A DNA stretch of 33,164 nucleotides from Candidatus Omnitrophota bacterium. GTDB lineage: Bacteria; Omnitrophota; Gorgyraeia; Zapsychrales; JANLHA01. A program made the position numbers and the translations under genes. Location: NCBI GenBank assembly GCA_020849375.1, contig JADLGJ010000043.1, positions 1-33,164 on the forward strand. The letters are read 5' to 3'. Of this stretch, positions 3,009 through 5,901 are shown in pieces; positions within the stretch are counted from its first letter, which is position 1; every line of letters starts with the position of its first letter. The notes under the pieces are model-generated. The model saw nothing but the letters and a program-made list of their open reading frames with translations, was not told where the DNA came from and did not search any database.

Positions 3009-4424
3009 TTAAAATTGAAAATACAAGAACGGGATCGGAACCGCGACCCCGAAATTCATGATCATTAAAGCGCAGGCAGCGTAAATGAACCACCTCAACG
3101 CAGCCGGCTGACGGGCCACGGCCGTCCCGATATTTTCCTTTCCTTCCCAGCGGTCAACCATGATCAAAAAACCGATCAGGCCAAAAGCGGACAACAATTC
3201 AATCATCGGCAAACCGATCGCCCCGGCCTGCGTTCCGACCCTGAGCCCCTGCTCCCATCCGGACAAAAGATGTGAAATGATGTATTCGGCGTCGGACAAA
3301 TTATTCGCCCGGAAAAAGATCCACGCAAAACACACCAACGAGAACGTAATGAGCACCTTCAGGCTGCGGGGCCACGCGGCAGGCTTCCTGACAATGGTCG
3401 AGATCAAATAATAACAGCCATGCAAAGCACCCCAGACGATGAACGTCCAGTTAGCGCCATGCCACAGCCCACTCAATAAAAATGTAAGCAGAATATTTAA
3501 ACGCCACCTCCAGGGGCTCACACGATTCCCACCGAGCGGGATATAAACAAAGTCTCGGAACCACGTTGACAAGGAGATATGCCAGTGATGCCAGAAGTCC
3601 TGAATCGACGTTGCGAAGTAAGGCCGGTCAAAGTTTTTCATCAAACGGAATCCCAGAACTTGCGCACTCCCGATCGCAATATCGGAATATCCAGAAAAAT
3701 CGCAATAGATCTGAAAAGCAAAAAATATTGTGGCCAGGACAAGACTGGGGCCGGCGTAGGCCGAAGGGTCAGCGTAAACCTGATTCACGACGAGCGCGAG
3801 CCGGTCAGCGATCACGACTTTTTTGAACATCCCCCACAACATCAGCCTCAGCCCATCCGTGACACGGGAGACATCAAACGAATGCGTGACCCTCAATTGG
3901 GGCAGCAAATTTTGTGCGCGCTCGATCGGCCCGGCGACTAATTGCGGGAAGAACATGACATACAACGCATAGATCCCCAGATGGCGCTCGGCCCTCACCT
4001 TGCCCCGGTAAACATCAACGACATAACCCAAACTTTGAAAAGTATGAAAAGATAAACCAATCGGCAAAATGATCGAAAGGATCTTGGGGGAATAATGTAC
4101 TCCAAGTTGCTGAGCAAGGAAAGCGGCTGAGGAATTGAAGAAATCGAAATACTTAAAGACAAAAAGCACCAAGCACGTCGAAAAAATACTCACGCCGAGC
4201 AAGGCTTTGCGCCATCGGCCTTGCGCCGGTTCGATCAAGAGAGCGGCAAAATAATCGATCCCTATCAAAAGGAATAAAATTAACAGATACGCGGGAATGA
4301 ATGCGGCATAAAAACAGCAGCTGGCGATGAGCAACCAAAGCCATCGCCAGCTCTGCGGTATTGCAAAATAAACTGATACGACAACAGGAAAAAATATTAA
4401 GAAAAGGTACGAATTAAACGTCAT
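3009..4424 (-). CDS. MBOAT family O-acyltransferase (AlgI/DltB-like)
   Basis: A 471-residue polytopic membrane protein of the MBOAT family. Diagnostic segments are IYCDFSGYSDIAIGSAQVLG near residue 235, FWHHWHISLSTWFRDFVYIP near 275, and GLWHGANWTFIVWG near 316, whose histidine is the conserved catalytic residue of the family. AlgI-type proteins move an acyl (usually acetyl) group across the inner membrane for O-acylation of an exported polysaccharide. The length fits AlgI (about 500). The start codon overlaps the stop of the YnbE-YdbL fusion gene by one base (TAATGA), which is strong evidence for translational coupling, and the SGNH partner follows after one base. Confidence 0.93.
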   Translation of the reverse strand: MTFNSYLFLIFFPVVVSVYFAIPQSWRWLWLLIASCCFYAAFIPAYLLILFLLIGIDYFAALLIEPAQGRWRKALLGVSIFSTCLVLFVFKYFDFFNSSAAFLAQQLGVHYSPKILSIILPIGLSFHTFQSLGYVVDVYRGKVRAERHLGIYALYVMFFPQLVAGPIERAQNLLPQLRVTHSFDVSRVTDGLRLMLWGMFKKVVIADRLALVVNQVYADPSAYAGPSLVLATIFFAFQIYCDFSGYSDIAIGSAQVLGFRLMKNFDRPYFATSIQDFWHHWHISLSTWFRDFVYIPLGGNRVSPWRWRLNILLTFLLSGLWHGANWTFIVWGALHGCYYLISTIVRKPAAWPRSLKVLITFSLVCFAWIFFRANNLSDAEYIISHLLSGWEQGLRVGTQAGAIGLPMIELLSAFGLIGFLIMVDRWEGKENIGTAVARQPAALRWFIYAACALMIMNFGVAVPIPFLYFQF

Positions 4425-4972
4425 TAATTCTTAATGGTCCATCCACTGTCAACTTCGATCGGTGTTCCGGAAGCCGCGTCAGCTTGCAAACGTTTTGCGT
4501 ATAATTTCTGTACCTCTTCAACCGAACTGCCGTTCTTTTCGGCAACAGCGCGATAAATGATCATACGGTCACTATTCTCAGCATCGACGGGGAAAGCGAT
4601 CTTAGCCCCGGCCTTGCGAACCTCGACCAAGCCCATTTTATTTTCCCCAAGAATTCCCTGCTCCTCCAAAGCAACCAAGTCCGCACGGCGTTCTTTACGG
4701 CGTAACGCGGCGGCTTGAACATCCGAGCTCAAACCTTCGTCGGCATAAGCCTCGGTCACACCAAGATTCAAGAAACTTTGTGAACCTTTACGTTTAGGGC
4801 TGTCACCGGTGACCATGTTCTCAATTTCATCAATGTCATTTTCGATATGTTGATAAATGTCCAACCGCATGGAAATATCCACCTTGATCGGCTCTTTCGG
4901 CGCCTGCACGCTGACACGTGCGCAACCAAGGCCGAAGGCCAACAACACGAACAAACTCAATAAAATTCTCAT
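4424..4972 (-). CDS. YnbE-YdbL (DUF1318) fusion lipoprotein
   Basis: A 182-residue lipoprotein candidate: the signal peptide ends LAFGLGC, putting the lipidated cysteine at 17. Residues 18-60 (CARVSVQAPKEPIKVDISMR and onward) closely resemble E. coli YnbE, a small outer-membrane lipoprotein with the same APKEPI pattern. Residues about 85-182 (DVQAAALRRKERRADLVALE to the GWTIKN end) resemble YdbL/DUF1318. In E. coli these are separate genes in the order ydbH-ynbE-ydbL; here a YdbH-like gene lies directly upstream in the same order. The linker contains EAYADEG, which looks like a leftover signal-peptidase site of a once separate YdbL. Known role of the family: YdbH with YnbE bridges inner and outer membranes for lipid homeostasis. 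The fusion reading is my inference from remembered sequences. Confidence 0.75.
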   Translation of the reverse strand: MRILLSLFVLLAFGLGCARVSVQAPKEPIKVDISMRLDIYQHIENDIDEIENMVTGDSPKRKGSQSFLNLGVTEAYADEGLSSDVQAAALRRKERRADLVALEEQGILGENKMGLVEVRKAGAKIAFPVDAENSDRMIIYRAVAEKNGSSVEEVQKLYAKRLQADAASGTPIEVDSGWTIKN

Positions 4973-4989: not shown

Positions 4990-5901
4990 TTAACGGTGAT
5001 AAACGATCTTAAAAGCTCTTTTCCCCTGCTTGCCGTCCAAATTAACATCAGCGACCAAGTTTTTCTCTTCCATTGAGAGCTGTAAACCTCCCGCATTATA
5101 ATGATAATCCTGCAAAGTTTCTACCGCCGTGTCCAAAAACGCTTTTTGAACAATATTTTCCAGCAATCTGCGGTCTTTAATAATCAGCTTCCCGCCGGGC
5201 GAACCCATTTTAAAATCACCGCCCAGGACCGCGATCTCAGTACCGCTACCTCCGACCTCGAGTCCCCCATCCAGCGTCCCGGTCATTTCCATTTTCTTAC
5301 GCAGATCAAAATCTTTCACAAAACGTTCAATGGACAAATTGGTAAAACGGAGTTTGGCACGAAATTCCGGCAGGCCTTTGAGGGCAGCGGTCATATCCCC
5401 ATTGATCTTGCCGTTGAGAAAATCTGCGGAAAGAGCGGAGAAAAGAAGTTCCTGGCCCTTCATCTGCACGGGGCTTTTGATATCGAAAATAGCGGCTTTA
5501 TCGTAGGTGATCTTTTCGATACTGAACTGACCATCACCCTTCGACTGCCGGGCGCGTAAAAATAGTTTTTCGACATGCAGTTTGTCATAGTCCACCGACG
5601 CGCCTTCAACAACAAGACTCTCAATTTCTTTACTCAATACCTTCATTAATTGAAAACCGACACGAACCTCCTGCGCTTTAACCGTAAAAACGCCCTTCTT
5701 CTCGATGAGGATCCCGGTTAGCCGGACTTCGCCCAGCGACTTAAATTCAAAATGGCCGACCTGGACGGTCTCTACCGCAAACTTGCTCTTTATTTCTTTG
5801 CGAATAGCCGCGATGGCCAGCGGTTCAAGGCAAACCGCAAGAGTGACTACAGAAAGGATCAAAAAAATAAGGGAATAAAAACGCCGGCTCATAGGTTTCA
5901 A
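4990..5901 (-). CDS. short YdbH-like (AsmA-like) inter-membrane protein
   Basis: A 303-residue protein with one N-terminal membrane segment (SLIFLILSVVTLAVCLEPLA) followed by a beta-rich periplasmic region typical of AsmA/YdbH-type lipid-bridge proteins. The C-terminal part (GTLDGGLEVGGSG, then KLIIKDRRLLENIVQKA, ending in AFKIVYHR) matches the layout of the YdbH C-terminus. E. coli YdbH is about three times longer, so this version would span less of the periplasm unless it multimerises or pairs with another protein. It starts 36 bases after the PilZ gene ends, and the YnbE-YdbL fusion follows after 17 bases, so the three likely share an mRNA. Family assignment rests mainly on fold pattern and gene order. 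Confidence 0.65.
   Translation of the reverse strand: MKPMSRRFYSLIFLILSVVTLAVCLEPLAIAAIRKEIKSKFAVETVQVGHFEFKSLGEVRLTGILIEKKGVFTVKAQEVRVGFQLMKVLSKEIESLVVEGASVDYDKLHVEKLFLRARQSKGDGQFSIEKITYDKAAIFDIKSPVQMKGQELLFSALSADFLNGKINGDMTAALKGLPEFRAKLRFTNLSIERFVKDFDLRKKMEMTGTLDGGLEVGGSGTEIAVLGGDFKMGSPGGKLIIKDRRLLENIVQKAFLDTAVETLQDYHYNAGGLQLSMEEKNLVADVNLDGKQGKRAFKIVYHR

Follow-up and report, generated by a model that had tools for sequence, protein, structure and literature searches.

The gene at positions 4972..4424 of the minus strand of contig JADLGJ010000043.1 (Candidatus Omnitrophota, assembly GCA_020849375.1; positions 1 to 33,164, the whole stretch that was analysed, hereafter the window) encodes a lipoprotein precursor of 182 aa in which a YnbE-like domain and a YdbL/DUF1318 domain are joined in a single chain. 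We propose, with a probability of slightly below 60 %, that C17 of this fused precursor receives the lipid, that signal peptidase I cuts the chain after A77, and that the precursor serves a short YdbH-type lipid bridge. The proposal builds on the fusion, on both of its domains, on the ydbH context and on the strong conservation of an A-x-A triplet within a linker that is otherwise free of constraint, all of which are read from sequence; the cut and the enzyme responsible for it are deduced from these features, and the roles of YdbH, YnbE and YdbL are taken over from work in E. coli.

The ORF starts with an ATG preceded by a GGGGG purine stretch and ends with a TAA at 4426-4424. Residues 1-17 (4922..4972; all features described here are on the minus strand) form, from their sequence, a lipoprotein signal peptide with a lipobox (...FGLGC17) whose Cys was invariant in 69 relatives. 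They are followed by the YnbE-like domain (residues 17-57, CARVSVQAPKEPIKVDISMRLDIYQHIENDIDEIENMVTGD, 4802..4924), a disordered linker (residues 58-78, 4739..4801) that includes the triplet A75-Y76-A77 (4742..4750), and the YdbL/DUF1318 domain (residues 94-181, 4430..4693). An assembly or frame artefact, or read-through, was ruled out by the single open frame present in the best 80 of the 100 matching Omnitrophota loci, and the window ORF is confirmed as a real single-chain YnbE-YdbL fusion. The original prediction had placed YnbE and YdbL in one lipoprotein, with YdbL as its C-terminal half, YnbE similarity at its N-terminus and a YdbH-like gene ahead of it in the E. coli order, and each of these points was borne out by the domain and neighbourhood analyses described below. 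On the downstream side, the stop codon of the fused gene shares one base (TAATG) with the ATG of an MBOAT/DltB-like acyltransferase gene (4424..3009). Beyond it lie a gene for 324 aa with no Pfam match, a GDSL lipase gene and a glycosidase-like gene. The MBOAT gene was discarded as a functional partner of the fusion, since this neighbourhood was not found in the other fused loci.

The C-terminal part was assigned by sequence and by structure. PF07027 (DUF1318) matched residues 94-181 (E=1.8e-14, 54.5 bits against a cut-off of 27) and also matched 69/69 relatives, and hhalign aligned the C-terminus of the fused profile to E. coli YdbL with E=1.2e-11. An AF2 model of the fused protein, computed with a 69-row alignment, had a mean pLDDT of 86 with a well-predicted C-terminal domain, and Foldseek matched this model to the crystal structure of E. 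coli YdbL (PDB 28oj; E=2.2e-5, TM 0.82 of the target), to which the sequence also matched (E=3.9e-11). The YdbL part lacks a signal peptide at its own N-terminus, and an internal site resembling that of a signal peptidase is conserved instead.

Directly upstream, the gene at 5901..4990 encodes a YdbH-like AsmA/beta-groove protein, the presumed partner of the fusion, of 303 aa from a TTG (300 aa from the ATG at 5892). It matched PF11739 with E=8e-10 (38.6 bits against a cut-off of 26.3), and its AF2 model (pLDDT 91.9) predicted an N-terminal membrane helix at residues 4-38, stacked strands and a last strand at the C-terminal edge; a PDB fold search with this model gave no significant match. The gene order at the window locus is ydbH-ynbE-ydbL, the same as in E. 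coli MG1655, and a YdbH-like gene lies directly upstream, with short or overlapping spacing, in nearly all fused loci with enough flanking sequence. Most of the YdbH-like proteins of Omnitrophota in these loci measure about 280-430 aa between stops, roughly one third to one half of the 879 aa of E. coli YdbH.

Within Candidatus Omnitrophota the fusion is widespread. One genome per bacterial or archaeal species was scanned with a motif derived from the fused alignment, which limits the reach of the scan to close relatives; this recovered 100 relatives, the best 80 of which belong to Omnitrophota, except for two whose records carry only the title 'bacterium'. In a set of 383 near relatives, 127 had a match, and among the matches listed about 76 were one-ORF type-A fusions and five were of type B; a search of plasmids for the fusion gave no match. 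Sister lineages within the phylum carry split forms, in which a separate ynbE, of the form CTVKAVGDPNRPITINA…, is followed by a ydbL with a normal, full signal peptide. In eight genomes of a 384-genome search (L180-L187), ynbE and ydbL share a frame and are separated by just one stop, so that the loss of one stop would create the fusion, and in these in-frame relatives the full YdbL signal peptide sits exactly at the position of the linker. The split loci of these eight genomes stand either one mutation short of fusion or just after fission.

A DUF1318 tree asks for about three changes between the fused and split states, but AU tests did not reject a single fused clade either with DUF1318 alone or with YnbE plus DUF1318 (p 0.67-0.76). 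We therefore put the number of fusion events at 1-3 and make no claim of independent fusions; several independent fusions were considered and not upheld, the AU tests being compatible with a single fused clade. The window's own family (f1) mixes fused (G000, G238) and split (G077, G136, G218) members, which suggests gene replacement or transfer. Two further loci departed from the usual architecture. In one (L255, G309:C51), a plus-strand ORF of 365 aa starting at about position 1784 combines YnbE-like and DUF1318 parts with an AhpC/TSA thioredoxin-fold domain (AhpC-TSA Pfam E=3e-11, CPYC motif) and retains the linker triplet AYA. In the other (L047, G075:C1; 2590-3279 and upstream), the system is decayed: the YnbE part has no lipobox and has lost most of its core, and upstream only a fragment resembling the YdbH C-terminus is left, while DUF1318 and AWA|E persist.

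The linker is laid out like a shrunken signal peptide: a basic spacer (KRKG) and a short hydrophobic stretch (FLNLGV) lead to A75-Y76-A77, the predicted recognition triplet of signal peptidase I, with the predicted cut after A77. Per-position composition in 83 relatives gave the same layout, with a polar, Lys-containing or basic spacer, hydrophobic residues at -11, -10, -8, -7 and -6, free positions at -5 and -4, and, after the A-x-A, Q/E/D/A followed by E/D; YnbE ended about 13-24 residues ahead of the triplet. Since sister lineages keep ynbE and ydbL separate, often in frame and one stop apart, the linker is probably a remnant of the YdbL signal peptide.

Conservation of the triplet was far stronger than that of its surroundings. 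Position -1 was Ala in 83/83 distinct fusions and position -3 was A in 70, V in 12 and I in 1; in the site-rate alignment, the A75 column held 57 A, 11 V and 1 I, and Y76 was nearly constant. All distinct fusions examined had an [A/V/I]-x-A triplet ahead of DUF1318 (type A, 88/88; type B, 6/6; together 94/94). With a fixed window, a test by residue shuffling found the triplet in 89/94, as compared with 19.5 expected. The -3/-1 pattern of signal peptidase I, following a hydrophobic stretch that is short, was thus present in 83/83 and 94/94 sequences. Site rates at A75, Y76 and A77 were 0.32, 0.34 and 0.032, against a linker median of 1.9, which places A77 in the slowest rate class together with the lipobox Cys, while the linker upstream of the triplet is saturated with change (rates near 2). 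At the mean rate of the linker, about 47 changes would be expected over the tree length of 33.6, and the probability of no change at A77 is about 5e-21. Because A-x-A is kept in an otherwise saturated linker, we infer a live signal-peptidase-I site, and the host genome encodes both signal peptidase I and the lipoprotein signal peptidase (LspA).

In the original prediction, the EAYADEG linker had been taken for a fossil signal-peptidase site. Its origin from a signal peptide is upheld by the relatives with the ynbE-stop-ydbL arrangement, but the site rates rule out a fossil drifting neutrally, and the rate at A77 together with the 94/94 conservation indicates that the word 'fossil' is probably wrong. 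A separate internal start for YdbL was also discarded as unlikely: neither a start codon nor a ribosome site is conserved, as an in-frame start codon occurred in 41/83 linkers and a ribosome-site-like sequence at only 5 of these starts. Nor is AYA supported as the usual end of signal peptides in this phylum, given that among 53 roughly predicted Omnitrophota signal peptides Y was found at -2 in 6 % and any aromatic residue at -2 in 32 %.

In the proposed maturation, the fused chain would be exported and then lipidated at C17, with the lipoprotein signal peptidase acting at the lipobox, and signal peptidase I would cut the linker after A77. The two predicted products are YnbE, with 61 residues and a lipid anchor (~6.8 kDa plus lipid), and YdbL, with 105 residues and free in the periplasm (~11.4 kDa). 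YnbE would add strands onto the C-terminal edge of YdbH, and YdbL, produced 1:1 with its client, would prevent unlimited YnbE polymerization, the YdbH-type bridge being the putative route for lipids between the inner and outer membranes. A covalent tie holding the two proteins one to one had also been predicted; the 1:1 synthesis stands, but no lasting covalent tie would be left if the linker is cut. Several features of the linker weigh against a cut. At about 6 residues, its hydrophobic stretch falls far short of that of a normal signal peptide, charges are found at positions -9, -5 and -4, and the aromatic residue at -2 (Y/H/W/F, in 81/83 fusions) is conserved far beyond the need of signal peptidase I, which hints at an extra or different constraint. 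In one fusion (L037), there is almost no hydrophobic stretch ahead of AHA.

If the fusion stayed uncut, YdbL would be tethered to the outer membrane via YnbE, and each YnbE would carry its own brake. The single ORF is compatible with such a tether, the linker is long enough for one (about 13-24 residues to the triplet), and cleavage is as yet a prediction. However, a plain tether has no need of an invariant Ala, a -3/-1 pattern or a hydrophobic stretch, and the rest of the linker is saturated with change; on this evidence we regard a permanent tether as unlikely, while giving it real weight.

The conserved stretch, S-[LF]-L-x-[FL]-[FL]-[VI]-x-x-A-Y-A-Q-[ED], might instead be a short binding motif, for the YdbH groove, YnbE, the membrane or YdbL, and not a cutting site. 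Its near-constant -2 aromatic and its regular hydrophobic pattern do exceed what cleavage needs, but the variation seen in the triplet (A/V/I at -3, only A at -1) is exactly what signal peptidase I tolerates, the stretch sits where split relatives carry the end of a cleaved signal peptide, and the single-chain AF2 model, a coil at residues ~56-82 with a linker pLDDT of ~56-61, shows no ordered structure there. Because the linker is a low-confidence coil and the split homologues discard these residues, there is no visible structural reason for the triplet, and since split relatives have the end of a true signal peptide here, the residues of the triplet lie outside mature YdbL. Taken together, these observations make a binding motif improbable, and cleavage after A77 is the reading that we retain.

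The N-terminal part is, by profile comparison and by gene order and context, YnbE-like, and is not a Pfam member: PF13617 (YnbE, 34 positions) matched neither the window protein nor any of 69 fused relatives (0/69), and the separate YnbE of Omnitrophota also fell under its cut-off (E=0.013 and 0.27). When the N-terminus of the fused profile was compared with E. coli YnbE, signal peptide included, the profile-profile probability was 95 % (E=2.8e-8). Using the core without the signal peptide, the score against E. coli YnbE was 25.4, the best of 200 column shuffles reaching 23.5, and against the separate ynbE of other Omnitrophota it was 30.9, with a shuffle maximum of 17.5, so that the margin over the shuffles is small in the former case and large in the latter. 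The AF2 model places a helix at residues 31-55. That this part is an unrelated lipoprotein anchor on YdbL, as the 0/69 Pfam result might suggest, is very improbable, considering that the YnbE comparisons exceed shuffled controls, that APKEPI directly follows the lipobox Cys, an arrangement shared with E. coli YnbE, and that split relatives have ynbE at the same place.

The presence of the fusion across the phylum gives independent support for YnbE and YdbL acting as a pair with YdbH. A real cut would mean that the fusion fixes client and chaperone at one to one; in an uncut chain, YnbE would carry its brake permanently, and either outcome bears on the assembly and length limit of the YdbH–YnbE lipid bridge. 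As a more tentative extension of our proposal, for which we would not claim even odds, YnbE and its chaperone YdbL may form a polyprotein cut by signal peptidase I at a shrunken internal signal peptide, with one YdbL delivered per YnbE; with a YdbH only about one third as long as that of E. coli, stacked copies of YnbE may be needed to span the periplasm, and a matched dose of YdbL would then be essential. Whether bacteria mature such a pair as a polyprotein can be tested clearly and cheaply on this fusion.

Among the closest known systems is that of E. coli. There, YdbL reportedly limits the formation of YnbE polymers, a finding attributed to work by Kumar, Davis and Ruiz from 2024, and the role of YdbL as a brake, as used here, comes from this one E. 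coli study. The interaction of E. coli YdbH with the outer-membrane lipoprotein YnbE is cited in two papers (PMC12977461, PMC12045153). The E. coli and window loci share the gene order ydbH-ynbE-ydbL, a lipobox followed by APKEPI, and the DUF1318 fold (PDB 28oj), but ynbE and ydbL are separate in E. coli and a single gene in the window, and YdbH has 879 aa in E. coli (from coordinates) compared with 303 aa in the window. The split Omnitrophota loci have the same order and similar small YdbH-like genes, and differ in having two ORFs, often in the same frame and one stop apart, with a ydbL that carries its own full signal peptide. A further likeness is found in FbcH of Bradyrhizobium, a cytochrome b/c1 polyprotein that is cut at an internal signal sequence. 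FbcH, too, is encoded by one bacterial gene as a precursor that signal peptidase probably splits in the periplasm, although its proteins are unrelated to YnbE-YdbL and its internal signal sequence has the additional task of carrying the second half across the membrane, for which the hydrophobic stretch of the Omnitrophota fusion is too short. The phylum-wide YnbE-YdbL fusion is a variant of the known E. coli bridge system, and what it adds is a site under selection that resembles a signal-peptidase site and lies within a fusion of a lipoprotein and its chaperone.
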